Shown piece after piece: positions 1,251 to 37,367 of a DNA stretch of 64,000 bases (within the stretch, counting starts at the first letter, position 1; every line of letters begins with the position of its first letter). The notes beneath the pieces were generated by a model. It did not search any database, was not told the DNA's origin, and saw only the letters and a program-made list of their open reading frames with translations. A program made the position numbers and the translations under genes. Source of the DNA: Amnibacterium setariae (GTDB lineage Bacteria; Actinomycetota; Actinomycetes; Actinomycetales; Microbacteriaceae). The stretch is from the NCBI RefSeq assembly GCF_003581425.1, contig NZ_QXTG01000001.1:1426001-1490000 (forward strand), read 5' to 3'.

Positions 1251-1349
1251 GCGGATCCGCATTTCCTTCGCGGATCCGCAGTTCTGAGGCGACACGCCGT
1301 GTCCGGGGTTCCCGGACACAGCGTGTCGCGCAGGAACTGCGGATCCGCG
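1251..1349. repeat. R1 nested palindromic repeat, copy 1 (infB-rbfA junction)
   Basis: An 81-bp unit (1269-1349) has perfect 16-bp outer arms, CGCGGATCCGCAGTTC and its reverse complement, enclosing a second palindrome with GCGACACGC / GCGTGTCGC and a tip of TGTCCGGG-GTT-CCCGGACA. An extra GCGGATCCGC half-arm lies at 1251-1260. It begins 4 nt after the infB stop and ends about 20 nt before rbfA. Related copies lie at 19428-19508, 20567-20646 and 37269-37367. It may act as a terminator or attenuator within the operon. Confidence 0.9.
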
Positions 1350-1369
1350 TTCGTTCCGAAGGAGGAGCC

Positions 1370-1804
1370 GTGGCCGACCACGGACGCGCCGCGAAGCTCG
1401 GCGACAGCATCAAGGAGATCATCGCGAAGCGCCTCGAGAAGGGGCTCCGCGACCCCCGGCTCGGGTTCGTGACGATCACGGACGTCCGCATGACGGGCGA
1501 CCTGCAGCACGCGAGCATCTTCTACACCGTGTACGGCACGGAGCAGGAGCGCGAGGACTCCGCGGCGGCGCTCAAGGCCGCCACCGGCCTGCTGCGCACC
1601 GAGGTGGGCCGGAACATCCGCGCCCGGCTCACGCCGTCGCTCGAGTTCATCCCCGACGCGGTGCCGGAGAACGCGGCCCACGTCGCGGACCTGCTCGCGC
1701 AGGCCCGCGAGCGGGACAGCGCGGCCCGGGCGCTCGCCGAGGGCGCCCAGTACGCCGGCGACGCCGACCCGTACGTGAAGCCGCGCGAGGCCGACGCGGA
1801 GTGA
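1370..1804 (+). CDS. rbfA: 30S ribosome-binding factor A
   Basis: RbfA is a small KH-like protein that binds immature 30S subunits and helps 16S rRNA 5'-end processing. The 144-residue product has the family signatures KEIIAKRLEKGLRDPRLGFVT near the N-terminus and a C-terminal half ending in an acidic tail. The length is slightly above the common 120-135 residues because of that tail. The GTG start at 1370 is supported by the preceding AAGGAGGAGCC ribosome-binding site. It follows infB across an R1 palindrome, and its stop overlaps the next GTG start (GTGA), so the two are translationally coupled. Confidence 0.96.
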   Translation: MADHGRAAKLGDSIKEIIAKRLEKGLRDPRLGFVTITDVRMTGDLQHASIFYTVYGTEQEREDSAAALKAATGLLRTEVGRNIRARLTPSLEFIPDAVPENAAHVADLLAQARERDSAARALAEGAQYAGDADPYVKPREADAE

Positions 1805-2196
1805 GCGGGAACCGCGCCGAACGACGGGCGGCGGCGCGCACGCCGCCGTCCGTGCAGCAGCGCTACGGCTCGGGCAAGCAGCGCCGGGCGCTGGCACCCG
1901 CCGCGCTCGGCGCCATGGTGCTGCTCGGCGGGCTGCTGCTCGTCGGGCAGGAGTGGTACCTCTACATCCGGTTCGCGGTGAGCGTGCTCGCCGTGATCAC
2001 GACCGTGTTCGTCTGGCAGGCGAAGCAGTGGGCGTGGCTGCCGGTGCCGCTCGTCGTCGCCGTGCTCTGGAACCCCGTGCTGCCGTTCGCGTTCAGCGGG
2101 CAGCCGTTCCGGCTCGGGCACGTCGCCGGTGCGGCGGCGCTGCTGATCACGGGCGCCTTCGCCCGGTACGACCCGAGGCGGGCCGCCCGGGCCTGA
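1801..2196 (+). CDS. Small four-helix membrane protein, DUF6804-like
   Basis: This 131-residue protein begins with a basic, Arg-rich cytoplasmic tail of about 30 residues and then has about four hydrophobic segments (near residues 32-50, 55-75, 77-97 and 102-118). Its GTG start overlaps the rbfA stop by four bases, so it is co-translated with rbfA. The WQAKQWAW and FAFSGQPFR stretches recall DUF6804-type small membrane proteins, but I cannot run the comparison. No function is assigned. It ends about 50 bp before the 3' end of the convergent mutY gene. Confidence 0.75.
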   Translation: MSGNRAERRAAARTPPSVQQRYGSGKQRRALAPAALGAMVLLGGLLLVGQEWYLYIRFAVSVLAVITTVFVWQAKQWAWLPVPLVVAVLWNPVLPFAFSGQPFRLGHVAGAAALLITGAFARYDPRRAARA

Positions 2197-2246
2197 CCCC
2201 CGCCCGTCTTCGTCCCGTCGGCACGTCGTGCCGACGGGACGACGGG
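2196..2246. terminator. Possible bidirectional terminator between convergent genes
   Basis: The 50-bp gap holds an inverted repeat: CGTCCCGTCGGCACG is followed after a short spacer by its near complement CGTGCCGACGGGACG (about 2212-2242). It lies between the convergent rbfA-linked membrane gene and mutY. There is no T-run, as is usual for high-GC actinobacterial terminators. Confidence 0.65.
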
Positions 2247-3119
2247 TCAGGAGGGGAGCGACCAGCCGTCGTCGTCGCGCGCGGCGAGGCCGTCGCGCTC
2301 GAGGCCCGCGAGGATCCGGGCGCGCACCCCGGGGTCGGGGACGACGGCGACCAGCTCGGTCTCGCCGACGGGCACGTCGCTCGCCCGCAGCTCCGCCATG
2401 ACGCGGCCGCGCAGCTGCCGATCCGAGCCCTCGAAGCGCGGCTTCCGCCGCGCGGGCGGGGCGTCCGGCGGCGGGTACCCGGCGAGGCGCCAGGCGCAGA
2501 CGGCGCCGAGCGGGCACTCGTCGCACCGAGGGGCGCGCGCCGTGCAGACGACGGCGCCGATCTCCATCATCCCGGCGTTGAACGCGCGCTGCGCCGCCCG
2601 GTCGTCGGGCAGCAGCGCCTCCATCGCGGGCAGGTCGCGCCTCGCGTTCGGCGCCGCCGGCTGCGCCACGCCCTGCACGGCGCGCGCGACGACCCGCCGC
2701 ACGTTCGTGTCGACGACCGGGTGCCGGTGGCCGTGCGCGAACACGGCGATCGCGCGGGCCGTGTAGTCGCCGATGCCGGGGAGCGCGAGCAGCTCGTCCA
2801 CGTCCTCCGGCACCCGGTTCCCGTGCCGCTCGGCGATCGCCGTGGCGCACGCGTGGAGGGCGAGCGCGCGGCGCGGGTAGCCGAGGCGGCCCCAGGCCCT
2901 GAGCACCTCCGCGGGCGGCGCCGCGGCGAGGTCGGCGGGGGTGGGCCAGCGGCGCAGCCAGTCCTCGAGGATCGGCACGACGCGGGCGACCTGCGTCTGC
3001 TGCAGCATGAACTCGGAGACGAGCGTGCCCCAGGCGCTGAAGCCCGGGCGGCGCCAGGGCAGGTCGCGGGCGTGCGCCGCGAACCAGTCGGTCACGAGCG
3101 CGGGGTCGAGCGCCGTCAT
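2247..3119 (-). CDS. mutY: A/G-specific adenine glycosylase
   Basis: MutY removes adenine mispaired with 8-oxoguanine in base-excision repair. The 290-residue product shows the N-terminal helix-hairpin-helix fold with the MutY signature SEFMLQQTQV near residue 35, the HhH loop LPGIGDYTA with its catalytic aspartate further on (VVDTN), and a C-x6-C-x2-C-x5-C [4Fe-4S] site (CTARAPRCDECPLGAVC). The ATG at 3119 is chosen because it overlaps the upstream acetyltransferase stop (ATGA). The C-terminus after about residue 225 is short and resembles a winged helix rather than the usual NUDIX-like 8-oxoG recognition domain, as in many actinobacterial MutY proteins. Confidence 0.93.
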   Translation of the reverse strand: MTALDPALVTDWFAAHARDLPWRRPGFSAWGTLVSEFMLQQTQVARVVPILEDWLRRWPTPADLAAAPPAEVLRAWGRLGYPRRALALHACATAIAERHGNRVPEDVDELLALPGIGDYTARAIAVFAHGHRHPVVDTNVRRVVARAVQGVAQPAAPNARRDLPAMEALLPDDRAAQRAFNAGMMEIGAVVCTARAPRCDECPLGAVCAWRLAGYPPPDAPPARRKPRFEGSDRQLRGRVMAELRASDVPVGETELVAVVPDPGVRARILAGLERDGLAARDDDGWSLPS

Positions 3120-3571
3120 GCGAGCCGCTTCTCCAGGTGGACGCGGTCGTACCCCTGCTGGGTCCACCGCCCGCGCTCGACGAAGCCGCGGCGCGAGTAG
3201 AACTCCCGCGCTTCCGTCATCGCCGCGTTGGTCGCGAGCCGGACGGCGTTCGTGCCGGACTCGATCGCGGTCAGCTCGGCGCGGTCGAGGAGGAGGGAGC
3301 CGAGGCCCGTGCCGTGCTCGGCGGGCAGCACCGCGAGCGTCTCGACGAGCACGTGGCCCGGGTGCGGCCAGAGCACGAGCACGCCGACGACCCGGTCCTC
3401 CCGGGTCGCGACGAGCGCGCCGAGCGCCGAGATCGTCGTCGGCCAGTCGGTGCCGAGCGGTGCGGGCCGGATCCCGGTCCGCGCGACGAAGGCCGCGAAC
3501 GCCGCGTCGACGACGGCGGCGATCTCCGGCACGTCCGCGTCGCGCGCGGCGCGGAGTCGGGTGACGGGCAC
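3116..3571 (-). CDS. GNAT-family N-acetyltransferase
   Basis: A 151-residue Gcn5-related acetyltransferase that would transfer an acetyl group from acetyl-CoA to an unknown small molecule or protein. The acetyl-CoA pocket is seen as LAVLPAEHGTGLGSLLLD near residues 79-96, and motif B contains the typical REFYSRRGFVE. The GTG start at 3571 gives a normal-length domain, and a TACGCT -10 box lies 8 nt upstream with no Shine-Dalgarno sequence, suggesting a leaderless message. Its stop overlaps mutY, so the two are one transcription unit. The substrate cannot be predicted. Confidence 0.9.
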   Translation of the reverse strand: MPVTRLRAARDADVPEIAAVVDAAFAAFVARTGIRPAPLGTDWPTTISALGALVATREDRVVGVLVLWPHPGHVLVETLAVLPAEHGTGLGSLLLDRAELTAIESGTNAVRLATNAAMTEAREFYSRRGFVERGRWTQQGYDRVHLEKRLA

Positions 3572-3579
3572 GGGCTCCG

Positions 3580-3585
3580 AGCGTA
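3580..3585 (-). promoter_or_regulatory. -10 box TACGCT for the acetyltransferase-mutY operon
   Basis: On the minus strand TACGCT lies 8 nt before the GTG start at 3571 with no ribosome-binding site, fitting a leaderless transcript. It sits back to back with the opposing box at 3592-3597. Confidence 0.5.
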
Positions 3586-3591
3586 GGCGGC

Positions 3592-3597
3592 TAGCGT
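3592..3597 (+). promoter_or_regulatory. -10 box TAGCGT for the kinase-like gene at 3605
   Basis: TAGCGT lies 7 nt before the ATG at 3605. The two divergent start codons are only 33 bp apart, so each promoter's -35 region would fall inside the neighbouring gene. Confidence 0.45.
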
Positions 3598-3604
3598 GCC
3601 GGGC

Positions 3605-4195
3605 ATGGCCCGATGGCAGCCCGCACGGGCCGACGTGATCGCCGAGTACGCCCGCGAGGTGCTCGAGGTGCACCCGGCCGGCCGCGTGGTCGTCGGGCTC
3701 GACGGCATCGAGGACCCGGAGGACCGCGGCACCCCCGCGGCTCGCGAGGCGTTCGCCGAGGACCTGGTCGCCGCGGTCGCCGCGCTGGGCGTCCCCGCGC
3801 TCGCGGTGCCGCTGGGCGCCTTCGCCGCCGCGCCGCGGGCGGACTCGCCGGAGCGCTTCTTCGACGAGGCCCGCTTCCGGGCGGAGGTGCTGACGCCGTA
3901 CCGCCGCGGCGCGCTCGCGGGCGCGGAGGCCGACCGGGCGGTGCTCGTCGTCTCCGGCCCCTTCCTCCACTTCGGCGACCTCGCCGGGATCTGGCACACG
4001 AGCGCCTGGCTGCAGGTGCCGCGGGAGGTCGCGCGCGAGCGCGACGCCGAGCGGCTGCCCGGCACCGACCGCGCGGCGTGGACCGCGCTCGTCGACCTGG
4101 CCTTCCGGCGCCTCGACGCCCGGAAGCTCGCCAACGCGACGTTCGACCTGACGGACCCGTCGCACCCGCGGCGGGAGTTCGAGGACGCCTGCTGA
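3605..4195 (+). CDS. Uridine kinase-like protein with degenerate P-loop
   Basis: This 196-residue protein has the layout of the uridine kinase/phosphoribulokinase-like NTPases used in actinobacteria: an N-terminal VVVGLDG strand, a middle ERFFDEARFR segment, a GPFLH strand, and a C-terminal lid with VPREVARERDAER. However, the expected GxxGxGK[ST] nucleotide-binding loop is replaced by GIEDPEDRGTPAAR at about residues 26-39, with no P-loop lysine. It may therefore be catalytically inactive or bind another ligand. The ATG at 3605 is favoured over GTG at 3596 because of the -10 box spacing. It is convergent with panE. Confidence 0.8.
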   Translation: MARWQPARADVIAEYAREVLEVHPAGRVVVGLDGIEDPEDRGTPAAREAFAEDLVAAVAALGVPALAVPLGAFAAAPRADSPERFFDEARFRAEVLTPYRRGALAGAEADRAVLVVSGPFLHFGDLAGIWHTSAWLQVPREVARERDAERLPGTDRAAWTALVDLAFRRLDARKLANATFDLTDPSHPRREFEDAC

Positions 4196-4198
4196 CGC

Positions 4199-5194
4199 TC
4201 AGCCGAGCAGCCGACGGGCCGCCTCGTCCGGCGGCAGGAAGGCCCCGGTCGACTCGACCTCGTGGACGAGCGCGACGATCCGCGCGTTGACCGGCGTCGG
4301 GACGTCGAGCCGGGCTCCCGCCTCGACGACGGCGCCGGACAGGTGGTCGATCTCGCTCGGCCGCCCTCGGCGGATGCTCTGCAGCGTGCTGCCCGGGTTC
4401 GGCACCGCGCCCATGCGGGCGAGTACGCCGCGGCGGACGATCCGGCCCGCGATCGCGAGGGGGAGGCGGTCCACCGCGCGGATCAGGGCGGGCGTCAGCG
4501 CGGGCAGGCCCTCGAGCCGGACGCCGTCGGCCCGGGCCACGCGGACGGTCTCCCGCATCGCCGCCGCGACCGCCGCCGCCAGCCGCGGCGACCCGAGCGC
4601 CTCCTGCAGCCCGACCCCGGTGACGGCGGGCGCCGCGTTCAGCTGGTTCACCACGAGCTTCGACCACTGGAGGCCGGCGAGGTCCGGCGCGCTGCGGACC
4701 GCGGCGACCCCGCCGAGCACCGCGACCGCGGACCGCAGGTCGGCCTCCGACGCCGTCTCCCGGGCGAGCACGGTCGTGCCGCGCGCCGTCACCGTGACGA
4801 CGCCGGGGGAGAGGTAGGAGGCGGCGATCATCGACGCGGCGCCGAGCAGCGGCGAGGTCGGCAGCGCCTCGCGCAGCGCCTGCGGGCCGCGCACCCCGTT
4901 CTGCACCACCACGACCGGCACGCCGGCGAGCGCCGCCGCGTTCTGCGCCGCCGCGGCCGCCGCGTCCTGCGCCTTGACCGCCAGCAGCGCGAGGTCCGGT
5001 GCCTCGCGCAGCGTCTCGTCGGCGCGGAGCCGCGCCGTCCACTCGCCGTACCCGCCGTCGAGGCGCAGGCCGCCGGAGCGGATCGCCGCGAGCTGGTCGC
5101 CGCGCGCCGTCACCACGACCTCGTGCCCGGCGCGGTCGAGCAGCGCCGCGAAGGTCCCGCCGAGCGCCCCCGCCCCGATCACGCCGATCCGCAC
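4199..5194 (-). CDS. panE: 2-dehydropantoate 2-reductase family protein
   Basis: Ketopantoate reductase makes D-pantoate with NADPH on the way to pantothenate and coenzyme A. The 331-residue product opens with a Rossmann motif (IGVIGAGALGG), has the conserved VKAQD lysine region near residue 75, the VVVQNGV segment, and a C-terminal ApbA_C helical domain with KLVVNQLNA and the RGRPSEIDHLSG motif. The GTG at 5194 starts directly at the nucleotide-binding strand and has TACGCT 6 nt upstream. Members of this family sometimes act on other 2-oxo acids, so pantoate is likely but not proven. It is divergent from truB. Confidence 0.88.
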   Translation of the reverse strand: MRIGVIGAGALGGTFAALLDRAGHEVVVTARGDQLAAIRSGGLRLDGGYGEWTARLRADETLREAPDLALLAVKAQDAAAAAAQNAAALAGVPVVVVQNGVRGPQALREALPTSPLLGAASMIAASYLSPGVVTVTARGTTVLARETASEADLRSAVAVLGGVAAVRSAPDLAGLQWSKLVVNQLNAAPAVTGVGLQEALGSPRLAAAVAAAMRETVRVARADGVRLEGLPALTPALIRAVDRLPLAIAGRIVRRGVLARMGAVPNPGSTLQSIRRGRPSEIDHLSGAVVEAGARLDVPTPVNARIVALVHEVESTGAFLPPDEAARRLLG

Positions 5195-5200
5195 CCGGGC

Positions 5201-5206
5201 AGCGTA
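5201..5206 (-). promoter_or_regulatory. -10 box TACGCT for panE (leaderless candidate)
   Basis: TACGCT on the minus strand lies 6 nt before the GTG at 5194, without a Shine-Dalgarno sequence. The 39-bp gap to truB must hold both promoters. Confidence 0.5.
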
Positions 5207-5233
5207 GGCGGCGACGGATGGGACGATGGAGGG

Positions 5234-6100
5234 GTGACCGCCGGTCTGCTCCTCGTCGACAAGCCGATCGGGCCCACCTCCCACGACCTCGTGCAGCGGA
5301 CGCGCCGCCTTGCCGGCACCCGCAGGGTCGGCCACGCGGGCACGCTCGACCCCGCCGCGAGCGGCCTGCTGCTGCTCGGCGTCGACGGGGCGACCCGGCT
5401 GCTGACGCACCTCGTGGGCCTCGACAAGACCTACACGGCGACGATCCGCCTCGGGTCCGCCACGACCACCGACGACGCGGAGGGCGCGCCGATCGGTGCA
5501 CCCGCGGTCGTCACCGACGAGGTCCGCGGGCGCATCCCGGCGGCGGTCGCGGCGCTCACCGGGGAGATCGACCAGGTGCCGTCCTCCGTCAGCGCCGTCC
5601 ACGTCGACGGCCGCCGCGCGCACGAGCTGGTCCGCGCGGGGGAGTCGGTCGACCTCCCGTCGCGCCGGGTGGTGATCCGCCGGTTCGAGGTGCTCGAGCA
5701 GCGGGACGAGGAGCTCGACGTCGTCGTGGACTGCTCCTCCGGCACGTACATCCGGGCGCTCGCCCGGGACCTCGGCGCCGCGCTCGGCGTCGGCGGCCAC
5801 CTCACGGCGCTGCGGCGCACCCGCGTCGGACCGTTCGACGTCGCCGACGCCGCGCCGCTCGAGGCGCCGCTCGCGCTCCGCGCCCCCGCCGAGATCGCGA
5901 CGACCCTGTTCCCGGCCCTGCGGCTCGACGAGGCCGGGACGGTCGCGCTGCGGCAGGGCAAGCGCCTCCCCGTCGACCTCCCCGACGCGCCCGTCGTCGC
6001 CGCGCTCGACCCCGAGGGCGCCCTGATCGGGCTCGTGGAGGTCGTGGGCGGCCGCACCCGCGTGCTCATGAACCTGCCGCCCGAGCCGGTGCGGGCGTGA
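5234..6100 (+). CDS. truB: tRNA pseudouridine(55) synthase
   Basis: TruB makes the universal pseudouridine 55 in the T-loop of tRNAs. The 288-residue product has the N-terminal KPIGPTSHD motif, the catalytic aspartate in GHAGTLDPAASG (about residue 40), the SGTYIRALARDLG motif near 175, and a C-terminal PUA-like region typical of actinobacterial TruB. The GTG at 5234 lies right at the fold start. The 15-mer GACGATGGAGGGGTG around the start also precedes the FUSC gene at 56458; it reads either as a close Shine-Dalgarno sequence or as a -10 box with a leaderless start. Its stop overlaps the next GTG. Confidence 0.96.
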   Translation: MTAGLLLVDKPIGPTSHDLVQRTRRLAGTRRVGHAGTLDPAASGLLLLGVDGATRLLTHLVGLDKTYTATIRLGSATTTDDAEGAPIGAPAVVTDEVRGRIPAAVAALTGEIDQVPSSVSAVHVDGRRAHELVRAGESVDLPSRRVVIRRFEVLEQRDEELDVVVDCSSGTYIRALARDLGAALGVGGHLTALRRTRVGPFDVADAAPLEAPLALRAPAEIATTLFPALRLDEAGTVALRQGKRLPVDLPDAPVVAALDPEGALIGLVEVVGGRTRVLMNLPPEPVRA

Positions 6101-6465
6101 TCGCCGGGTTCACGACGGCCGCGGTGATCGTCGCGGCGGTCGCCGCCGTGCTCGCCGTCGTGCTCGGGCTCGCGGGCCGCAAGCCCTCCGACCTCTCGCT
6201 CGCCGGGCCCGCGCTGCTCGAGCTGCTGCTGCTCGCGCAGGCCGTCATCGGGATCGCCGCGCCGTTCGTCGGCAACCCGCCGTCGGGCAACCCGGTCGAG
6301 TGGTGGGCCTACCTGATCGCGGCGCTGATCATCCCGCCCGCGGCGATCTTCTGGGCGCTCACCGAGCGCACCCGGTGGTCGGTGGTGGTGGTCGGCATCG
6401 CCTGCTTCGCGGTCGGCGTGATGTTCGTCCGGATGCAGATCATCTGGACGCTGCAGGGCTCCTGA
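6097..6465 (+). CDS. Four-helix membrane protein coupled to truB
   Basis: A 122-residue integral membrane protein with four predicted helices (about residues 3-26, 35-58, 69-90 and 98-116) and very short loops. The GTG start overlaps the truB stop (GTGA), so translation is coupled. Small membrane proteins of this kind commonly sit between truB and ribF in Microbacteriaceae. The function is unknown and I see no catalytic motif. Confidence 0.8.
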   Translation: MIAGFTTAAVIVAAVAAVLAVVLGLAGRKPSDLSLAGPALLELLLLAQAVIGIAAPFVGNPPSGNPVEWWAYLIAALIIPPAAIFWALTERTRWSVVVVGIACFAVGVMFVRMQIIWTLQGS

Positions 6466-6511
6466 CCCGCGGCGGCGGCTCCCGACGACGGCGTGGGAGA
6501 ATCGGCGGGCG

Positions 6512-6937
6512 ATGACCGACACGACCGCCGAGCGGCAGAAGACCTCCGGGCCCGGCCGCACCCTGATCGTCTTCTACTTCATCATGACGATCGCGGCGGT
6601 GTTCCGGAGCGTGTACCAGGCGATCACGGCGTTCGGCGAGGCGCCCCTCGCGATCACGCTGTCGTTCGTCGCCGGCGTCATCTACCTCGTCGCGACGATC
6701 AACCTGATCCGCACCGGGCGGACCGCCTACCGGATCGCGTTCGCCGCCATCACGTTCGAGCTCGTCGGTGTCGTCGTCGTCGGCGCGCTGTCGCTGGTGC
6801 TGCCGCGCGTCTTCCCCTTCGACTACACGGTCTGGTGGGGCTTCGGGCTCGGCTACCTGCTGATCCCGCTCGCGCTGCCGATCCTCGGGCTGCTGTTCCT
6901 GCGCAGCCAGCGCGCCGTCTTCGCGCGGACCGCCTGA
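6512..6937 (+). CDS. Four-helix membrane protein upstream of ribF
   Basis: A 141-residue protein with a 15-residue polar N-terminus and four hydrophobic helices (about residues 17-36, 48-70, 76-100 and 109-133). There is no Shine-Dalgarno sequence; GAGAAT lies 9 nt before the ATG and could be a -10 box for a leaderless message. The gene ends two bases before the ribF start, so it probably forms an operon with ribF. A role in flavin uptake would be guesswork; no transporter motif is visible. Confidence 0.82.
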   Translation: MTDTTAERQKTSGPGRTLIVFYFIMTIAAVFRSVYQAITAFGEAPLAITLSFVAGVIYLVATINLIRTGRTAYRIAFAAITFELVGVVVVGALSLVLPRVFPFDYTVWWGFGLGYLLIPLALPILGLLFLRSQRAVFARTA

Positions 6938-6939
6938 CC

Positions 6940-7875: not shown

Positions 7876-7884
7876 TCCGCGCGA

Positions 7885-8022
7885 GGGTCCTGATCTCGAG
7901 GCTCGCCGGCGCTCGCACCTCGATCAGCGGAGGTGTGCGGAGCGCTCGCCCGACCCGTTGGTCGAGGTGCGAGCGCAGCGATGGGCCCCACGGCCGGTGT
8001 TCCCGGGCGAGGGACTCGAGAC
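7885..8022. repeat. R2 repeats between convergent ribF and deoC
   Basis: Two R2 elements fill this junction. The first (7891-7926) reads TGATCTCGAGGCTCGCCGGC then GCTCGCACCTCGATCA, an imperfect palindrome. The second (7959-7980) is TTGGTCGAGGTGCGAGCGCAGC, with a possible outlying arm GGACTCGAGACCG at 8012-8024. Related copies lie at 11131-11410, 44116-44153 and 48153-48241. The position between two stop codons suggests a bidirectional terminator role. Confidence 0.85.
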
Positions 8023-8033
8023 CGACCCGCGCG

Positions 8034-19427: not shown

Positions 19428-19508
19428 CGCGGATCCGCAGTTCTCGGCCGACACGCCGCGCGCGACCGTGCTGGTCGCGGCGTGTCGCCCCGGAACTGCG
19501 GATCCGCG
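19428..19508. repeat. R1 nested palindromic repeat, copy 2
   Basis: 81 bp with the same outer arms as copy 1, CGCGGATCCGCAGTTC and its complement, and inner arms CGACACGCCG / CGGCGTGTCG with a different tip (GCGACC-GTGCT-GGTCGC). It lies between the convergent yidC and 2H-nucleotidyltransferase genes. Confidence 0.92.
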
Positions 19509-20566: not shown

Positions 20567-20665
20567 CGCGGATCCGCAGATCCGGGTCGACACGCCGGTG
20601 CGCGACGTGCGCCGGCGGCGTGTCGCCGGGGATCTGCGGATCCGCGGAAGAACTCCGGATCCGCG
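20567..20665. repeat. R1 nested palindromic repeat, copy 3, plus a half-arm
   Basis: The 80-bp unit (20567-20646) has outer arms CGCGGATCCGCAGATCC and its perfect complement, and inner TCGACACGCCGG / CGGCGTGTCGCC-type arms. A further half-arm AACTCCGGATCCGCG follows at about 20651-20665. It is 12 nt beyond the 3' end of the dehydrogenase gene on the minus strand and upstream of the 2H fusion gene. Confidence 0.9.
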
Positions 20666-20676: not shown

Positions 20677-21810
20677 TCAGGGGTGGAGGAGCACCTTCGT
20701 CCAGCCGTCCTCGCGGTCGTCGAAGCGGCGGTAGGCCTCGGGCGCCTCATCGAGGGAGAGCTCGTGGCTCACGATGATCCCCGGGTTGAGCTTGTCGCGG
20801 TGGATCAGGTTCCGCAGCTGCCGGTTGTACTGCTTCACGTTCGCCTGCCCGGTCGCGATCGCCTGGCCCTTGAAGAAGAACGTGCCGAAGTCCATCGGGA
20901 ACTCGCCCTGCTTCGCGAGGTCGGAGGAGGCGTTCGGGTCCTCCGGCACGAAGACGCCGACGACGCCGATGCGGCCCGTCGGGCGCACCGCCTGGATCAG
21001 CGAGTTGATCGTCATGCCGGGCTGCTCGTGCCCCTCGTGGTCGTGGGCCTGGTAGCCGACCGCCTCGACGCCCTTGTCCGCGCCCTGCCCCTGCGTCAGG
21101 TCGAGCACCTGCTGCACCGCGTCGCCCTCCGAGTCGTCGATCGGCGTCGCGCCGACCCGCTCGACGAGCTTCAGTCGGTCCGGCTGGCGGTCGATCACGT
21201 ACACCTCGGCGGCGCCTCGCAGGTTCGCCGACATGGCGGCCATCAGGCCGACGGGACCGGCGCCGTAGATCACGACGGAGTCGCCGATGCCGACGTCCGC
21301 CAGCTGGGTGCCGTGGTACCCGGTCGGGAGGATGTCGGACAGCATCGTGTAGTCCTTCTCCTTCTCGTGCGCGTCCTCGGGGAGCACGAGCGCGTTGAAG
21401 TCCGCGAAGGGGACGCGGAGCAGCTCGGCCTGGCCGCCGGAGTACGGCCCCATGTCCGCATAGCCGTAGGCGCCGCCGGCGCTGCCCGGGTTCACGGTGA
21501 GGCAGAAGCCCGTCCGGCCCGCCTCGCAGTTCTTGCAGAACCCGCACGCGATGTTGAACGGCAGCACGACGACGTCGCCGACCTGCACGCGGACGACGCC
21601 CTCGCCGACCGCGACGACCTCGCCCATGTTCTCGTGGCCGAGCACCTTGCCGGTCTCGACGTCGGTGCGGCCCTCGTACATGTGGAGGTCGCTGCCGCAG
21701 ATGTTCGTGGTGGTGATGCGGACGAGGGCGTCGGTGGGGCGCTCGATCCTCGCGTCCGGGACCTCGTCGATGGTCACGTTCTTCGGGCCGTGGTAGACGA
21801 GCGCGCGCAT
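20677..21810 (-). CDS. Zinc-dependent alcohol dehydrogenase, formaldehyde-dehydrogenase-like
   Basis: A 377-residue medium-chain dehydrogenase. The catalytic zinc site (NICGSDLHMYEG, GHENMGEVV), the structural zinc cysteines (CGFCKNCEAGRTGFC), and the NAD-binding motif (GAGPVGLMAA, about residue 185) are all present. The insert around residues 230-270 and the QGEFPMDFG region are like glutathione-independent formaldehyde dehydrogenases, which oxidise or dismutate formaldehyde with tightly bound NAD. ATG 21810 has a GGGAAGGAAGCACC ribosome-binding site. Function at subfamily level is likely but not certain. An R1 repeat follows the gene. Confidence 0.9.
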   Translation of the reverse strand: MRALVYHGPKNVTIDEVPDARIERPTDALVRITTTNICGSDLHMYEGRTDVETGKVLGHENMGEVVAVGEGVVRVQVGDVVVLPFNIACGFCKNCEAGRTGFCLTVNPGSAGGAYGYADMGPYSGGQAELLRVPFADFNALVLPEDAHEKEKDYTMLSDILPTGYHGTQLADVGIGDSVVIYGAGPVGLMAAMSANLRGAAEVYVIDRQPDRLKLVERVGATPIDDSEGDAVQQVLDLTQGQGADKGVEAVGYQAHDHEGHEQPGMTINSLIQAVRPTGRIGVVGVFVPEDPNASSDLAKQGEFPMDFGTFFFKGQAIATGQANVKQYNRQLRNLIHRDKLNPGIIVSHELSLDEAPEAYRRFDDREDGWTKVLLHP

Positions 21811-22235: not shown

Positions 22236-22368
22236 ATCGCGCAGGACGCGTCCATCGCGCAGGACGCGTCGATCGAGCAGGACGCGTAGATCGAGCAGGA
22301 CGGCGTCGGTCCAGCAGGACGTGACGGGCCGTCCCGTCCTGCTCGATCGACCGGGTCCTGCTCGATCG
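22236..22368. repeat. R3: 18-bp tandem repeat with inverted copies
   Basis: Three exact 18-nt steps start at 22236, 22254 and 22272, and a longer fourth unit at 22290, each built on ATCG[C/A]GCAGGACGCGT. A fifth partial AGCAGGACG is at 22313. Two inverted copies, CGTCCTGCTCGAT (22335-22347) and GTCCTGCTCGATCG (22355-22368), follow. The array can fold into alternative hairpins and fills the gap between two convergent genes. Confidence 0.88.
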
Positions 22369-30526: not shown

Positions 30527-30579
30527 CCGACGCCGATCCGCACCGTCCGCCTCGGGGGCGCGAGGAGGAGGATCACCGC

Positions 30580-30828: not shown

Positions 30829-30833
30829 CGGGA

Positions 30834-30880: not shown

Positions 30881-31411
30881 GCGCTGGGACCCGCGCCCGG
30901 GACCGTCCGGGTCGTGCGGCTCGCCGGCGCGACGGCGCAGGCCGATCGGCAGCACCGCCCAGGCGAGCGCGATCACGACGACGCCGATCACCGCGACGGC
31001 GATCGCCCCGGCGGCACCCGTGGCGACGCTGAAGACGAGCGCGAGCGCGGCGGCGATCGCGAGGCCGGTGAACGCCATGCCGAGGCGCGCCATCCGGTCG
31101 CCCCACGCGACCAGCGTCCGCATCGCGCGCCGCCGGAACAGGGCCCGGTGCAGCGCCACCGGCATCAGCGCGCAGACCGTCGAGAGCACCGCGAGGGAGA
31201 CCGCGACGAGGTAGAGCACCCGCTGCCAGTCCTCCAGGTCGCGGAAGGTCTGCTGGAACGCCACGGTGAGCAGGAAGCCCGTGAGCAGCTGGGTGCCGGT
31301 CTGCACGACCCGCAGCTCCTGGAGGAGGGCGTTCCAGTTGCGGTCGAGCCGCTCGGTCGCCGTCTCGTCGCGACCGTCCGTCGGGTCCGCGTCCTCGTGG
31401 TCCTCCGCCAT
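30875..31411 (-). CDS. DUF6328 family membrane protein
   Basis: A 178-residue protein with a polar acidic N-terminus (about 25 residues), the conserved NALLQELRVVQTGTQLLTGF segment of DUF6328, and four membrane helices (about residues 43-60, 65-90, 113-132 and 137-160), followed by a basic tail. ATG 31411 follows TAGATT by 7 nt with no ribosome-binding site. No function is known. It is divergent from the FAD-linked oxidase gene. Confidence 0.85.
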   Translation of the reverse strand: MAEDHEDADPTDGRDETATERLDRNWNALLQELRVVQTGTQLLTGFLLTVAFQQTFRDLEDWQRVLYLVAVSLAVLSTVCALMPVALHRALFRRRAMRTLVAWGDRMARLGMAFTGLAIAAALALVFSVATGAAGAIAVAVIGVVVIALAWAVLPIGLRRRAGEPHDPDGPGRGSQRG

Positions 31412-31418
31412 GGTCGCG

Positions 31419-31424
31419 AATCTA
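31419..31424 (-). promoter_or_regulatory. -10 box TAGATT for the DUF6328 gene
   Basis: TAGATT on the minus strand lies 7 nt before the ATG at 31411. It forms a divergent leaderless pair with the box at 31456. Confidence 0.5.
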
Positions 31425-31455
31425 GGGCCGGAACCGGGGCGTCCGCCGCGCTCCC

Positions 31456-31461
31456 TAGGCT
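31456..31461 (+). promoter_or_regulatory. -10 box TAGGCT for the FAD-linked oxidase
   Basis: TAGGCT lies 7 nt before the ATG at 31469, with no Shine-Dalgarno sequence. Confidence 0.5.
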
Positions 31462-31468
31462 TGCCGGC

Positions 31469-32863
31469 ATGGCGTTCCTCGAGGAGCTCGCCGCGGCGCT
31501 GGGGCCGGCGGTCAGCACGGACCGGTCCGAGCTCGACCGCGTCCGCACCGATCGCAGCGGCTGGACGACGCCGGAGGTGCCGCTCGCGGTCGTCCGCGCC
31601 CGGTCGACCGAGGACGTGCAGGCGCTGCTGCGGCTCGCCTCCGCCGCGGGCGTCCCCGTCGTCCCGCGCGGCGCCGGCACGGGGCTCGCGGGCGGCGCGG
31701 TCGGCACCACCGGCTCCGTCGTGCTCGACCTCGCGGGCATGGACCGGGTGCTCGAGGTCGACGAGGACGACGAGACCGCGCGCGTGCAGCCCGGCGTCGT
31801 CACCGACGACCTCGCCGCCGTGCTCGCCCCCCGCGGCCTCTGGTGGCCGCCCGACCCGGCGAGCCGCGCGATCTCCACCGTCGGCGGCAACATCGCGACG
31901 AACGCGGGCGGCCTGCTCTGCGCGAAGTACGGCGTGACCCGGGAGAGCGTGCTCGGCCTGCAGGTCGTGCTCGCGGACGGCACGCTGGTGCGGCTCGGCC
32001 GCGGCACCGTGAAGGGCGTCACCGGCTTCGACCTCACCGCGCTGCTGATCGGCTCCGAGGGCACCCTCGGCGTCGTGGTCGAGGCGACCCTCAAGCTGCG
32101 CCGCACCGAGTCGCGGCCCGTCGTCACCATCGGTGCGACCTTCCCCGACGTGCGGTCCGCAGCGGCCGCTGCCGCGGCGATCACCGCCTCCGGCCTCCGC
32201 TGCGCCGCGCTCGAGCTCATGGACGCGGCGTCGTGCGCGGCGGTCGACGCGCTCGTCGCCGCGGGCGAGGGCCCGGCCGGCGACGTGCCGGCGCTCGGCG
32301 GCCACGGCGCGTTCCTGCTCGTGCAGACCGACGGCGGCGCCGCGCCGCAGGAGGCGGAGCAGGCCCTCGCGCTGATCGCCGCGGCGGGCGGCGAGGGCCG
32401 GGTCGCCCTCGACGCGGCCGCGGGCGCCGACCTCGTCGCCCTCCGCCGCGCCGCGCACCCCGCCTTCGCGCGGCTCGGCGAGGTGCTGATCGAGGACGTC
32501 TGCGTGCCGCGCTCGCGGCTGCCCGAGATGTTCGACGCCGTCGAGGCGATCGGGCGCCGCCACGGCCTGCCGATCCCGACCATCGCCCACGCGGGCGACG
32601 GCAACCTCCACCCGAACATCGTGATCCCCGCCTCGGTGCCGCACGCCCCCGGCGAGATCCCGGACGTCGTCTGGGCGGCGGGGGAGGAGCTGTTCCGCAC
32701 GGCGATCGCGCTCGGCGGCACGCTCACCGGGGAGCACGGCGTCGGCGTGCTGAAGCGCCGGTGGATCGCCGACGAGCTCGGCGAGGACGTGATGGCCCTG
32801 TCGAGGCGGGTGAAGGCCGCGTTCGACCCCCTCGGCATCCTGAACCCCGGCAAGGTCTGGTGA
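31469..32863 (+). CDS. FAD-linked oxidase, glycolate/D-lactate dehydrogenase (GlcD) type
   Basis: A 464-residue flavoprotein of the VAO family. The PCMH-type FAD-binding domain holds VVPRGAGTGLAGGAVG (about residues 69-84) and STVGGNIATNAGGL; the C-terminal FAD-oxidase domain has AHAGDGNLHPNIV and ends with the GTLTGEHGVGVLKR and LNPGKVW motifs. Such enzymes oxidise glycolate, D-lactate or related 2-hydroxy acids. The GlcE and GlcF partners are not adjacent, so a single-subunit enzyme with another acceptor is likely. The start is set by the -10 box at 31456. Confidence 0.92.
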   Translation: MAFLEELAAALGPAVSTDRSELDRVRTDRSGWTTPEVPLAVVRARSTEDVQALLRLASAAGVPVVPRGAGTGLAGGAVGTTGSVVLDLAGMDRVLEVDEDDETARVQPGVVTDDLAAVLAPRGLWWPPDPASRAISTVGGNIATNAGGLLCAKYGVTRESVLGLQVVLADGTLVRLGRGTVKGVTGFDLTALLIGSEGTLGVVVEATLKLRRTESRPVVTIGATFPDVRSAAAAAAAITASGLRCAALELMDAASCAAVDALVAAGEGPAGDVPALGGHGAFLLVQTDGGAAPQEAEQALALIAAAGGEGRVALDAAAGADLVALRRAAHPAFARLGEVLIEDVCVPRSRLPEMFDAVEAIGRRHGLPIPTIAHAGDGNLHPNIVIPASVPHAPGEIPDVVWAAGEELFRTAIALGGTLTGEHGVGVLKRRWIADELGEDVMALSRRVKAAFDPLGILNPGKVW

Positions 32864-32903
32864 CCCCGGTCCGCTCCGAGGCGGGCGCTGGGAGCATGGT
32901 CCC

Positions 32904-34061
32904 GTGACCGACATCCGGCAGGCCCCGGTCGGCCTCGCGCCGATCGGGCCGGACCAGCACACGCCCGGGCACGCCGCGCGGGCCGTCGCCGCGGCGCTCG
33001 GCATCGCCCTCGGCGTCGTCGCGGTGGTCGTCGTGCTGCTCTACCTGATCTCCGCCCTCGGCGCCGCGGGCGTCGCGATCGCGGCCGTCGCCGCCCTCGT
33101 GCCCTTCGTCGTCGTGCTGCTCGTCATCCGCTGGATCGACCGGTGGGAGCCGGAGCCGCGGCCCGCCCTCGTGTTCGCCGTGCTCTGGGGCGCGGGCGTC
33201 GCGGTGGCCCTCGCCCTGATCTTCGACCTCGGCGTGCAGCTCGTGGTCGGCGCGTCCGGCGGCCGGCCCGACGACTTCGCGCAGGCCGTGATCCAGGCGC
33301 CGCTCGTCGAGGAGGGCGCGAAGGGCCTCGGCGTCCTGCTGCTGTTCTGGGTGAACCGCCGGCACTTCGACGGCCCGGTCGACGGCATCGTCTACGCGAC
33401 GAGCATCGCCGCCGGGTTCGCCTTCACGGAGAACATCCTCTACTTCGGCCGGGTGCTCGCGGAGCAGGGGCTCGGTGCCGCGTTCGTCTTCACCTTCGTC
33501 GTCCGCGGCGTCTTCTCGCCCTTCGCGCACCTGCTCTTCACGGCCTGCACCGGCTTCGCGATCGGGAAGGCGGCGGAGCGCGGGGGCGGCGCCGCGGCGG
33601 GCTTCGGCGCCTACCTGCTCGGCCTGATCCCGGCCGCGATCCTGCACGCGCTGTGGAACGGCGGGCTGTCGCTCGCCCGCGACACGATCGGCTACTACCT
33701 CGGCGTGGAGGTGCCGATCTTCCTCGGCGCGGTCGCGGTGGTGCTCGTCGTCCGGGCGCGCGAGCGCGCGATCACCCGCGCGCGCCTCGGCGAGTACGCG
33801 CAGGCGGGCTGGTTCACGCCGCAGGAGGTCGCGCTGATCTCGACGCCCGGCGGGCGGCGCCAGGCGATGCGGTGGGCCGACGCGCAGCGCGACCCGCGGG
33901 CCAAGCGGGCCGCGATGGACCGGCTGATCCGCGACGCCACCCGGCTCGGGCACGCCCGCCAGCGCCTCGTGAAGGGGCGCGCCACGATCGGCCGCACCCC
34001 CGACGAGCAGGAGCTGCTCGGCCGCATCACCGCCGACCGCCAGGTGCTCACCGCCCCCTGA
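32904..34061 (+). CDS. PrsW-family intramembrane metalloprotease
   Basis: A 385-residue membrane protease. About seven or eight helices carry the PrsW motifs: APLVEEGAKG (EExxK), AFTENILYFG (FxxxEN), and the metal-binding histidines in FSPFAHLLF and ILHALWNG. A soluble C-terminal domain of about 110 residues follows, rich in Arg and Ala. In Bacillus, PrsW cleaves the anti-sigma factor RsiW. No anti-sigma factor gene is adjacent here, so the target is unknown. The GTG start at 32904 follows a weak GGGAGC site; the gene is 40 bp after the oxidase and may be co-transcribed. Confidence 0.9.
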   Translation: MTDIRQAPVGLAPIGPDQHTPGHAARAVAAALGIALGVVAVVVVLLYLISALGAAGVAIAAVAALVPFVVVLLVIRWIDRWEPEPRPALVFAVLWGAGVAVALALIFDLGVQLVVGASGGRPDDFAQAVIQAPLVEEGAKGLGVLLLFWVNRRHFDGPVDGIVYATSIAAGFAFTENILYFGRVLAEQGLGAAFVFTFVVRGVFSPFAHLLFTACTGFAIGKAAERGGGAAAGFGAYLLGLIPAAILHALWNGGLSLARDTIGYYLGVEVPIFLGAVAVVLVVRARERAITRARLGEYAQAGWFTPQEVALISTPGGRRQAMRWADAQRDPRAKRAAMDRLIRDATRLGHARQRLVKGRATIGRTPDEQELLGRITADRQVLTAP

Positions 34062-34196
34062 TCCCTCCCGCCCCGTTTCGTGGGCACCACCCGCCTGCGG
34101 AGCGAAGTGGGAGCGCGGGGTTCCCGCTGACCGGAAGGTCGCGTGCGGACCCGCGCACCCCGCCGTGTCGCGATCGGGCCCGCCCGCGGCCCTCCC

Positions 34197-34202
34197 TACG
34201 GT
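34197..34202 (+). promoter_or_regulatory. -10 box TACGGT for the DUF1800-DUF1501 operon
   Basis: TACGGT lies about 25 nt before the ATG, and a CAGGGGAGGACGC ribosome-binding site lies between, so this message is leadered, unlike many neighbours. Confidence 0.4.
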
Positions 34203-34226
34203 TGGCGCCACCGCAGGGGAGGACGC

Positions 34227-35858
34227 ATGAGCGACATCGACGAGCGCGACGCGCCGGACACGCAGGGACCCGTCAGGACGTCGTCCCGCCGCGGCCTGTT
34301 CGGGCTCGGCGCCGTCCTCGCGGTCGGCGCCGTCGCGGGCGACGCGCTGGTGGGGGAGGCCGACGCGGCCGAGGCCGCCACGGCCGCGACCGCGGCCCGG
34401 AAGGGGCGGCAGTACCCGACGGCGTCCGCCGCGGCGAAGGCCGTCAAGCGCTCGCGGTCGAGCCTCTTCCCGCACGACCCGAAGGCCCACCTCCTCCGCC
34501 GTGCGACCTTCGGTCCGCGCCCGAAGGACGTCGCGGACCTGAAGCGGCTCGGCATCGACCGCTGGCTGGAGCGGCAGCTGCACCCGAGGTCGATCAAGGA
34601 CCCGCGCGGCGCGAAGGCCGCGGCGCTCTTCCCGCTCGACGGCGCGAAGCCCGGCACGATCGTGAAGAAGACGAAGCGGTACAGCTGGGACGCCATGATG
34701 GCGACCGCGCAGGCGACCCTCGCGCGGCAGGTCTTCTCCGACCGCCAGCTGTACGAGATCGTCGTCGACGTCTTCTCCGACCACCTCCACGTCGCGATCC
34801 CCGGCGGCCAGTGGCACACCACGCCGAGCTGGATCAAGGACGTGATCCGAGGGCACGCGTTCGGCACCTACGAGGGCATGCTCCTCGCCGCGATGAAGCA
34901 CCCGGCGATGCTGAACTACCTCTCGAACGACGAGTCGCGCCGGGCGGACGTGAACGAGAACCTCGGCCGCGAGCTGCTCGAGCTGCACACCGTGGGCCGG
35001 GGCGCCGGGTACACGGAGGCGATGGTCCGTTCGAGCGCGAAGATCCTCTCCGGCCGCACCTGGGACTACGACACCGGGAAGTACTACTTCAACGAGCCGT
35101 GGCACTGGACCGGCCGGGTGAAGGTGCTCGGGTTCAGCCACGCCAACGGGTCCATGTACCGGGGCGAGCAGGTCGGCGACGCCTACCTGAAGTACCTCGC
35201 GCACCACCCCGCCACCGCGCGGAACATCGCCCGCCGGCTCGCGACCCGGTTCGTGTCGGACACCCCCTCCGCGGACCTCGTGAACCGGCTCGCGCACGTC
35301 TACCTGCGCCACGGCACGAGCATCACGGCCGTCGTCGACGCGATCTTCAAGTCGAGCGACTTCTGGTCCTCCGTCGGCGGCAAGATGCGCCGGCCGCTGG
35401 AGGACGCGGTCGGCGCGCTCCGCGTGCTCGACGTGAAGCGGGCGTCGGGCATGAAGACGCCGCTCGGCTGGCTCTACTGGAACCTGAACGCGCAGGGCCA
35501 CGCGCCCTACGCGTGGGGCCCGCCGAACGGCTACCCCGACGTCGCCGCCGCGTGGCTCGGCGCCGGGGCGATGCTCCAGCGCTGGAACCTGCACCGCGCG
35601 TTCGTGAACGGGTGGTGGCCGAAGCTCGGCTGGACGAAGCCGTCGAAGCTCGTGAAGCGCACCGCCGGCATGACGACCCTCCAATGGACGCGGGCGGCCG
35701 GCAAGCGGCTGCTCGGCACGACGCCGTCGAAGAAGCACCTGCTCGCCGTCGTCCACGGCGCCGGCCTCACCGCGGGCTCGCCCGCCCCGACCGACGACTG
35801 GCGCTGCGGCAAGCTCGCGACGCTCCTGCTCGACTCCCCGTACTTCCAGCTGCGCTGA
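34227..35858 (+). CDS. DUF1800 protein with Tat-type signal
   Basis: A 543-residue secreted protein. The N-terminus has a twin-arginine motif SSRRGLFGLG (about residues 20-29) and a hydrophobic stretch ending near AADA, so it is probably exported folded by Tat. The DUF1800 body includes HLLRRATFGP (about 90), the FSDHLHV region and NENLGRELLELHTVG. The ATG at 34227 is chosen for its ribosome-binding site. It is followed 18 bp later by a DUF1501 gene; DUF1800/DUF1501 pairs are common in diverse bacteria but their biochemical role is not established. Both products appear to go to the cell surface. Confidence 0.92.
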   Translation: MSDIDERDAPDTQGPVRTSSRRGLFGLGAVLAVGAVAGDALVGEADAAEAATAATAARKGRQYPTASAAAKAVKRSRSSLFPHDPKAHLLRRATFGPRPKDVADLKRLGIDRWLERQLHPRSIKDPRGAKAAALFPLDGAKPGTIVKKTKRYSWDAMMATAQATLARQVFSDRQLYEIVVDVFSDHLHVAIPGGQWHTTPSWIKDVIRGHAFGTYEGMLLAAMKHPAMLNYLSNDESRRADVNENLGRELLELHTVGRGAGYTEAMVRSSAKILSGRTWDYDTGKYYFNEPWHWTGRVKVLGFSHANGSMYRGEQVGDAYLKYLAHHPATARNIARRLATRFVSDTPSADLVNRLAHVYLRHGTSITAVVDAIFKSSDFWSSVGGKMRRPLEDAVGALRVLDVKRASGMKTPLGWLYWNLNAQGHAPYAWGPPNGYPDVAAAWLGAGAMLQRWNLHRAFVNGWWPKLGWTKPSKLVKRTAGMTTLQWTRAAGKRLLGTTPSKKHLLAVVHGAGLTAGSPAPTDDWRCGKLATLLLDSPYFQLR

Positions 35859-35876
35859 CGCGACAGGAGACCCGTG

Positions 35877-37262
35877 ATGACGACCCCCGCGACCCCCGCG
35901 CCCTCCGAGGACGTGCTCCGCACGCTCCACCCCGACTGCCCCGACTGGCAGCGCCTCGGCCCGACCCCGCAGGACGCGGCGCTGCGCGCCATGGCCGAGG
36001 CGCAGCGCCTCGCGGAGGAGGAGCGCGACGCGGCCTGGTCGGGCGGCTTCAACCGCCGCACCTTCCTCGCGGCCGGGCTCGGCGTCGGCGTCGCGACCCT
36101 CGGCGCGCAGCTCGTGACGAGCCGCGTCTCCTACGCCGCCGCGGACGAGGTGCAGCGCGGCACCCTCGTGGTCGTCTTCCTCCGCGGCGGCATGGACGGG
36201 CTCTCGATGCTCGTGCCCGCCGCGGACCCGCAGCTGCTGAAGGAGCGGCCGAACATCGGCGTGCGCGCCGGCTCGCTCCTCGAGTTCGACACCGCGCGCG
36301 GCTTCGGCCTGCACCCCGCGATGGCGCCGCTGAAGCCGCTGATCGACCAGGGCCGGGTCGCCGCGGTGCCCGCGGTGTCGACTCCCGACCTGTCGCGCAG
36401 CCACTTCCAGGCGCAGGACTGCCTCGAGCGCGGCTCGAGCGGGTCCCTGACCACCGGCTGGCTCGACCGGGTGCTCGTCGCCGCCGGCCCCGGCACGACC
36501 TTCCGCGGCGTCGCGGTCGGCGGCACGACCCCGCGCTCGCTCGTCGGCGCCGCGAACCCGATCGCGATGCACGACCTCGGGTCCGTGAAGCTCGACGTCG
36601 ACAAGACGGAGACGAAGCGGACCACCGCGGCGCTGCAGGCGCTCTACACGGGCCTCGACCACCCCATCGCGAAGCAGACGAGGCTCGCGATCGGCGCGCT
36701 CGGGACCGTGTCCCGGATCCGCGACGCGAAGCCCGCGGCGGACGCCGTCAAGTACCCCGACGGGAACTTCGCGGACGCGCTGAAGAACCTCGCGATGCTG
36801 ATCAAGGGCGGCGCCGGCGTGCGCGTCGCGTGCATCGACGTCGGCGGCTGGGACACCCACACCGGCATGGGGAACGTCGACCGCGGCGACATGCAGCGGC
36901 ACCTCGGCGACCTCGCGAGCGCGATCGCGGCGTTCGCGAGCGACCTCGGCTCCGACCTGCTCGACGACACGACGGTCGTCACGATGAGCGAGTTCGGGCG
37001 CCGCGTCGAGGAGAACGCGAGCGGCGGCACCGACCACGGCCACGGCGGGGCGGTCCTCGTCGTCGGCGGCGGCGTCAGGCCCGGCGTCCACGGCGTCTGG
37101 AAGGGGCTGGCGCAGCGCACGACGCTCGGCGACGTGCCCGGCTGGAACGACTACCGCGACGTGCTCACCGAGGTCGTGAGCAAGCGGCTCGACCTGTCGG
37201 CCGGGAAGCTGAAGACCGTGTTCCCGGGCTGGCGGGCGAAGCCGGTCGGCATCGTCGCCTGA
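35877..37262 (+). CDS. DUF1501 protein with Tat-type signal
   Basis: A 461-residue secreted protein of the DUF1501 family, which has an alkaline-phosphatase/sulfatase-like fold. After a polar region of about 55 residues comes the twin-arginine signal FNRRTFLAAGLG. Family motifs are VVVFLRGGMDGLSMLVP, RSHFQAQD, DVGGWDTHTG and MSEFGRRVEEN ... GTDHGHGGA, which contain likely metal-binding Asp and His residues. ATG 35877 (or GTG 35874) follows AGGAGACC. It forms an operon with the DUF1800 gene. The function is unknown; a surface hydrolase or assembly role is only an inference. Confidence 0.93.
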   Translation: MTTPATPAPSEDVLRTLHPDCPDWQRLGPTPQDAALRAMAEAQRLAEEERDAAWSGGFNRRTFLAAGLGVGVATLGAQLVTSRVSYAAADEVQRGTLVVVFLRGGMDGLSMLVPAADPQLLKERPNIGVRAGSLLEFDTARGFGLHPAMAPLKPLIDQGRVAAVPAVSTPDLSRSHFQAQDCLERGSSGSLTTGWLDRVLVAAGPGTTFRGVAVGGTTPRSLVGAANPIAMHDLGSVKLDVDKTETKRTTAALQALYTGLDHPIAKQTRLAIGALGTVSRIRDAKPAADAVKYPDGNFADALKNLAMLIKGGAGVRVACIDVGGWDTHTGMGNVDRGDMQRHLGDLASAIAAFASDLGSDLLDDTTVVTMSEFGRRVEENASGGTDHGHGGAVLVVGGGVRPGVHGVWKGLAQRTTLGDVPGWNDYRDVLTEVVSKRLDLSAGKLKTVFPGWRAKPVGIVA

Positions 37263-37268
37263 GGCCTT

Positions 37269-37367
37269 CGCGGATCCGGAGATCCTCCGCGGATCCGGAG
37301 TTCTCGCGCGACACGCCGCTCGCGGGCTGCTGCGGACGGCGTGTCGCCCCGGATCTCCGGATCCGCG
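37269..37367. repeat. R1 nested palindromic repeat, copy 4 (variant arms)
   Basis: A 99-bp unit with outer arms CGCGGATCCGGAGATCC and its perfect complement, a second inner half-arm CGCGGATCCGGAGTTC, and the CGACACGCCG / ACGGCGTGTCG inner pair. Compared with copies 1-3 the arm reads GGAG instead of GCAG, and the opposite arm CTCC instead of CTGC. It lies between the convergent DUF1501 and M50 genes. Confidence 0.9.

Follow-up and report, generated by a model that had tools for sequence, protein, structure and literature searches.

Palindromic repeats dispersed in the genome of Amnibacterium setariae may be the solo ends of palindrome-flanked nuclease cassettes

Four palindromic elements in a 64-kb window

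The stretch of DNA analysed here, called 'the window', covers 64,000 nucleotides of the Amnibacterium setariae genome (contig NZ_QXTG01000001.1, positions 1,426,001 to 1,490,000). It contains four nested palindromic elements of 80 to 81 bp, whose copies elsewhere stand alone ('solos') or on both sides of a nuclease gene ('units'); this report concerns the relation between the two. The elements are built in the same order: a 16-bp outer arm, a 5-nt linker, the left inner arm CGACACGCCG, a tip of 18 to 19 nt, the right inner arm CGGCGTGTCG, a second 5-nt linker and the mirrored outer arm. The sequences CGCGGATCCG and CGACACGCCG are common to all four; the right inner arm is CAGCGTGTCG in copy 1 and CGGCGTGTCG in the others. 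The two inner arms are referred to as the core.

Element 1 (1269-1349; core 1290-1299 and 1319-1328, tip 1300-1318) occupies the gap between infB and rbfA, two genes identified by Pfam. Element 2 (19428-19508; core 19449-19458 and 19478-19487, tip 19459-19477) lies in a gap between convergent genes, and is followed by element 3 (20567-20646; core 20588-20597 and 20616-20625, tip 20598-20615) and element 4 (37288-37367; core 37309-37318 and 37337-37346, tip 37319-37336). All four are solos, the first three with outer arms of type C and the fourth with arms of type G. In three of the four, an extra 19-bp copy of the outer arm is present on one side: at 1250-1268 (plus strand; copy A1, facing the infB stop codon), at 20647-20665 (minus strand, on the side where the minus-strand gene 20677-21810 has its stop codon) and at 37269-37287 (plus strand). 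An earlier note, made from the letters alone, had given a size of 80 to 99 bp. The lower value was borne out; the 99-bp fourth copy is an element plus its extra arm, since the segment at 37269 had been counted in. Its placing of every copy at most about 30 bp from a stop codon is correct for all four.

Folded as RNA, the window elements had z scores of -8.2 to -12.1. An Rfam scan of the window gave no match at gathering score, and membership of a known RNA family was rejected on this ground.

Copy number and distribution

The four elements are members of a larger family: the core pattern was encountered at 42 places of the genome, against none for the reversed control. The covariance-model search that the earlier note had proposed for this genome and its relatives was run. 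The model was built from ten copies; because no more than 150 candidates per genome were scored, copy counts are lower bounds: at least 54 copies in the genome of the window (G000), at least 63 and 23 in the genus-mates G001 and G006. Copies were present in all six Amnibacterium genus-mates, and the model matched in 12 of the 52 genera represented by the 60 relatives searched. The exact core, CGACACGCCG-N17..20-CGGCGTGTCG, was found in 28 of 396 genomes, that is, in 15 of 110 genera sampled from the order (reversed control: one genome, G088); carriers outside Amnibacterium include G388 and the genus g39. A search of IMG/VR for the core returned one contig, whose arms are not obviously paired.

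Widening the allowed spacing from N17-20 to N4-34 gave the same counts in all 12 genomes for which both counts were available, which indicates that the length of the tip is fixed and its sequence is not. In agreement, the tip, nearly always of 18 to 19 nt, measured 17 to 20 nt in 54 of 54 G000 copies and 61 of 63 G001 copies, the model itself favouring such a length. The idea of the tip as a copied barcode was rejected, tip-to-tip identity being near that of shuffled sequences. In G387 and G252, pairs of copies with identical tips were found, their likeness reaching a few tens of bases past the arms; these pairs show recent copying in other genera. Outer arms vary from genus to genus; by eye, they are self-complementary at most loci. 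Integron attC sites were set aside, as the copies are scattered singly.

Position relative to genes

Gene contexts of the 54 G000 copies were taken from a simple gene caller. A gene's 3' end adjoins 45 copies (23 between convergent genes and 22 between codirectional genes, just past the stop codon), and 9 are between divergent genes; element-free junctions in the same loci numbered 23 convergent, 116 codirectional and 37 divergent. For the 33 copies of G388, the figures were 12 convergent, 9 codirectional and 1 divergent, with 11 left without assignment. Of the one-sided codirectional cases in three genomes, 31 of 34 have the extra arm 5' of the hairpin in the direction of the transcript; in all 15 divergent cases it is on the side opposite the nearer gene. 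It is on the right in eight of the nine divergent copies of G000.

A plain terminator was rejected as an explanation. In three Amnibacterium genomes, none of the 272 3' sides of hairpins had TTTT within 15 nt; in G388, 1 of 66 did. Besides the infB/rbfA gap, copies occupy the metG/tatD gap and the gap that separates a NUDIX gene from xerD (proteins read by hand). The missing T-run, together with such positions, makes plain termination unlikely.

A nuclease gene bracketed by the palindromes

Pairs of closely spaced elements mostly flank ordinary genes (enolase, for instance, by hand reading), and general gene cargo was therefore rejected; the exception is one nuclease family, which several pairs flank. 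The bracketed gene, of about 0.9 kb, encodes an AbiEi-like protein that carries an endonuclease domain of the DUF559/MTES_1575 type. With Pfam at E<=0.01, four of five nucleases matched DUF559, four MTES_1575 and one AbiEi_4, the last over its N-terminal part. In the aligned proteins, the residues E, D, E-x-D-G and H are invariant, a nuclease-like pattern, and a PDB profile match was obtained to 3hrl, an 'Endonuclease-Like Protein' (E 5e-5). There was no NCBIfam match, and homologue searches of plasmid and phage records gave none either. We take the predicted nuclease to belong to the PD-(D/E)XK group.

The G000 unit (C1:988963-990097) has arms of type C. Both ends of the G001 unit (C3:562922-564088) are of another arm type, CACGGATCAGG. 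In the two units the last codons of the nuclease gene are inside the downstream palindrome; in G000 it is the copy at C1:988963 that overlaps the end of the gene. Units with doubled arms follow the order A1-A2-core-A2', nuclease gene, A2-core-A2'-A1', and the extra arms were outermost in all three that were read.

A profile search for the nuclease was carried out in 68 genomes, 34 carriers and 34 non-carriers of the palindrome, and homologues were found in 63 of them. The 11 closest (E<1e-100) had the palindrome of this family on both sides in ten cases, and upstream only in G156. By orthology, the ten bracketed places correspond to five independent sites, of which Amnibacterium accounts for four and family f8 for one. 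Nuclease places new to the analysis were bracketed in five cases out of five (G002 C142, G002 C348, G003 C14, G004 C4 and G004 C33). The G006 gene (L215:1684-2649) has an in-frame stop, and the G006 unit thus looks decayed.

Solos and units at orthologous sites

Some orthologous sites hold a solo in one species and a unit in another. Both flanks of the G000 solo at C1:324755 align to a unit in G001, G002 and G004; the G006 solo at C1:570143 likewise has a unit as its aligned counterpart in G001 and G004. Orthologous to the G000 unit are a unit in G002 and, in G001, a nuclease remnant with one palindrome. At the site of the unit shared by G006 and G003 (L215, L325), G004 has a different nuclease cassette with different palindromes (C118, L353).

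Arm types, counted with unit ends included, are common to units and solos. The 54 G000 copies comprise 41 of type C, like the unit of that genome, 11 of type G and 2 of type A. In G001 the 63 copies comprise 26 of type A2 (the CACGGATCAGG ends of the C3 unit), 1 of type A, 26 of type C and 10 of type G; its units are of types A2 and G, and type C is represented by the nuclease remnant. All 19 copies fetched from G006 are of type G, like the G006 unit. Solo arm types thus partly follow the arm types of the units found.

Variation of arms, core and tip

The earlier note's claim that each copy has matching changes in its opposite arm did not hold. In copy 4 of the window, the right arm pairs better with the extra arm (GGAGATCC) than with the element's own left arm (GGAGTTC). 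Over the 54 G000 copies, positions 13-21 pair no better than shuffled (P = 0.22 to 0.82); the 16-bp outer arms are perfectly complementary in only 8. Arm positions 1-12, by contrast, are paired in 48 to 54 of the 54, with co-variation at positions 2, 9, 11 and 12; they shift together between a small number of arm types. At core positions 22 and 25-28 pairing is slightly above shuffled (P = 0.000 to 0.05). When three genomes were pooled (134 copies), positions 13-17 did pair above shuffled (P = 0.000 to 0.024), which counts against this verdict; we attribute this to arm types differing between copies. In G388 there is next to no variation in the arms; one position gives a weak signal (P = 0.032).

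Pairing between the two halves of the tip exceeds that of re-paired halves in G388 (0.74 compared to 0.64) and in three g39 genomes (0.53 compared to 0.40), and weakly so in G000 (0.41 compared to 0.35) and G001 (0.38 compared to 0.33); no excess was seen in G006 (z 0.5). This, and the near-identity of arms and core between orthologues in which linkers and most tips drift (below), lends some support to selection for the fold, as the earlier note had suggested. Its corollary, that the repeats are not the result of simple spread, does not follow, because the co-variation is largely a switch among few arm types that are also found at the ends of nuclease units.

Conservation was assessed on 21 detected orthologous pairs of elements, a count that omits decayed copies missed by the covariance model. 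The outer ten positions and the core were mostly 0.9 to 1.0 identical (lowest column 0.76), positions 11-16 were 0.48 to 0.95 and the linkers 0.33 to 0.71 identical, and tips were slightly above shuffled. At one orthologous site, the arm type had switched from CGCGGATCCG to CACGGATCAGG.

Distant homologues and a second palindrome family

About 300 bp before and after each of 59 distant nuclease homologues (22 from supplied loci, 37 picked from a listing) were compared, with 93 ordinary genes of related loci as a control. The best flank-to-flank score exceeded 14, the 99th percentile of cross-locus pairs, for 37 of the 59 nucleases and 3 of the 93 control genes. With a stricter cut of 19, the 99th percentile of the control genes themselves, the numbers were 23 and 0. 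At 46 loci whose flanks have sequence in common, the distance from the end of the upstream copy to the matched region of the gene has a median of about 130 bp. The arms around one nuclease (L386, in G241) are the same as in the solo elements of that genome; at another (L383), the shared flank is a long direct repeat.

The window itself holds a solo palindrome of a second family (22275-22367), with doubled arms GAGCAGGAC. It matches the flanks of another nuclease of G000 (C1:667540, L357), where the same palindrome stands on both sides of the gene.

Comparison with known systems

Repetitive extragenic palindromic sequences (REPs), their REPIN composites and the associated RAYT genes are described as inverted repeats with conserved ends and many extragenic copies, the cognate gene being flanked by repeats (PMC3116915, PMC3733652); length and hairpin capacity of the spacer are given as the critical features of REPINs (PMC3116915). 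The present elements resemble them in these traits, including two inverted conserved ends around a variable spacer of constrained length. They differ in that the bracketed gene encodes an AbiEi/DUF559-type nuclease and in that no GTAG-tagged hairpin was recognised by eye. The Y1 tyrosine transposase profile PF01797 matched in none of 23 carriers (7 Amnibacterium, 16 others), compared to 5 of 14 control genomes, and membership of the REP/RAYT system was rejected for lack of such a match.

CGTC-tagged REPs are likewise dispersed palindromes without a dedicated transposase, according to the portion of the literature that describes them (PMC3733652); the same portion gives stems of 8 to 9 bp with loops of 4 to 5 nt, and names Proteobacteria and four other phyla, Actinobacteria not being among these. 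The present elements share the first trait; however, they measure 80 to 81 bp and have a tip of 18 to 19 nt. Each half-element holds a loopless dyad, GCGGATCCGC, and no GTAG or CGTC tag was recognised by eye in 54 copies.

The nuclease shares with the AbiE type IV toxin-antitoxin systems its AbiEi-like N-terminal part (one of five by Pfam), and AbiEi members are reported to bind inverted repeats (PMC7319586). It departs from them in its C-terminal endonuclease-type domain and in the palindromes on both sides of the gene.

Insertion sequences (ISs), IS110 types among them, are described as targeting REPs (PMC1525189). Two palindromes of G388, L313 (from 1546) and L315 (from 1542), are both broken immediately after CGGCGTGTCG, at an identical base, by inserts of near-identical sequence; the L313 insert, the one of the two on which Pfam was run, encodes an IS116/IS110/IS902-type transposase (Transposase_20). 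The likeness is limited to this shared place of IS110-type sequence, which is a passenger; the bracketed nuclease is no IS110 recombinase.

Among the matches listed in a search of open-licence PubMed Central (titles and starts of abstracts), none connected palindromic repeats with either DUF559 or the CGACACGCCG core.

Origin of the elements

We favour, with some reserve, the explanation that the elements are the solo ends of palindrome-nuclease-palindrome cassettes, REPIN-like with an unrelated enzyme. Its parts are not equally strong. The identity of the solos as cassette ends appears likely, given the bracketing, the alternation of solo and unit, the fixed tip length and the arm types that units and solos of a genome have in common; that the nuclease drives their spread is a more tentative proposal, to which we give slightly less than even odds. 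The nuclease would read core and arms, and binding of inverted repeats by the AbiEi family makes such recognition plausible. Solos may arise when the two ends of a cassette recombine and the gene is lost, from ends moved in trans, or by both routes. Copies could persist past stop codons if insertion is tolerated there, or if the transcribed hairpin is now useful.

Several observations weigh against this explanation. Neither target duplication nor excision or insertion was seen at the empty and solo sites compared, where divergence was too high for a duplication to be read. A matching unit was not found for the 11 type-G and 2 type-A copies of G000, and the 26 type-C copies of G001 have only a nuclease remnant of their type. 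Solos retain arms and core over genus-level divergence, as the 21 orthologous pairs indicate. Pfam support for the nuclease is modest (DUF559 in 4 of 5, AbiEi_4 in 1 of 5). Its homologues occur in carriers and non-carriers alike (63 of 68 genomes), and G399 and G397 hold the core and yet have no homologue at E<=1e-10. The ten bracketed places represent only five independent sites, the others being orthologues; 5 of the 11 close homologues had seeded the profile, a sixth (G006) was known beforehand, and 4 of the 11 have a stop codon within the match. At L384, the only one of six G388 nucleases to have its flanks read, the arms are unlike those of the 33 G388 solos. Among distant homologues, 22 of 59 have no shared flank sequence above the cut of 14, and at the shared segment of the other 37 an inverted repeat above the 95% level of the control was present in at least one flank in 22, and in both in 12; a palindromic nature is therefore supported for only part of the shared flanks.

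The palindromes might instead be host 3'-end hairpins, REP-like stabilisers of mRNA or weak terminators, at which nuclease cassettes insert or recombine as ISs do at REPs. The preference for gene 3' ends (45 of 54), the conservation of arms and core in orthologous pairs, the 5' position of the extra arm (31 of 34), the IS110-type sequence at the same place inside two G388 palindromes, and the presence, by eye, of other hairpins at the same junctions in relatives would all fit. We nevertheless consider it unlikely: the hairpins have no T-run, one is located between infB and rbfA, the distribution is sporadic (28 of 396 genomes), and distant nucleases often have other sequences common to both flanks. 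If the nuclease cut solo palindromes and the cassette were copied in by repair, solos would be homing targets and not remnants. Alternation at orthologous sites, the different cassette at the same site in G004 and the conserved nuclease-like residues agree with such homing; however, at one site the unit is present in three of the four species compared, which fits loss equally well, and solos far outnumber units. Homing is accordingly given a rather low probability.

Matching arms may also be produced by hairpin-templated (quasipalindrome) mutation, in which case no selection on the fold would be needed. This could yield the paired changes at positions 2, 9 and 11 and the partly palindromic tips, but it leaves positions 13-21 of the same hairpin unmatched in G000 and does not account for the conserved arm sequence or the fixed tip length; we regard it as very improbable. 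Finally, the palindromes could be operators, the AbiEi-like part binding its own flanks to control expression and the solos serving as further binding sites. AbiEi-family antitoxins are reported to bind inverted repeats in promoters (PMC7319586), and both the strict spacing of the core and the place of the upstream copy, by the median about 130 bp ahead of the matched gene region at 46 loci, are of the kind expected. Bracketing on both sides, with a 3' copy that runs into the coding end, is not, and the solos adjoin unrelated genes; the alternation of solo and unit would also be left unexplained. We consider an operator role improbable.

Beyond this family, the cassette-end explanation can be extended to a widespread, undescribed class of mobile cassettes in Actinomycetales, in which AbiEi/DUF559-type nucleases would each read their own bracketing palindromes, with solos as miniature partners. 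We hold this to be possible and somewhat doubtful; our confidence, already short of even, was lowered slightly because only 22 of 37 shared flanks were palindromic by test. Such cassettes would work like REP/RAYT, but their nuclease would have another fold and their hairpin a tip of fixed length. If they are mobile, they would provide a first clue to the role of a common nuclease family, account for a group of actinobacterial palindromic repeats that are now orphans, and constitute a nuclease-based counterpart to REP/RAYT.

Other palindromes

A third palindrome, with arms GCGCTCGCACCTCGA, has two copies in the window, at 7909-7976 and 48170-48221. Elsewhere in the genome, the place of one element of the first family (C2:259792) is taken in relatives (L222 and L223, beside the J-domain gene) by what is, by eye, an unrelated palindrome array with AGCAGGA arms and a period of about 19 nt.

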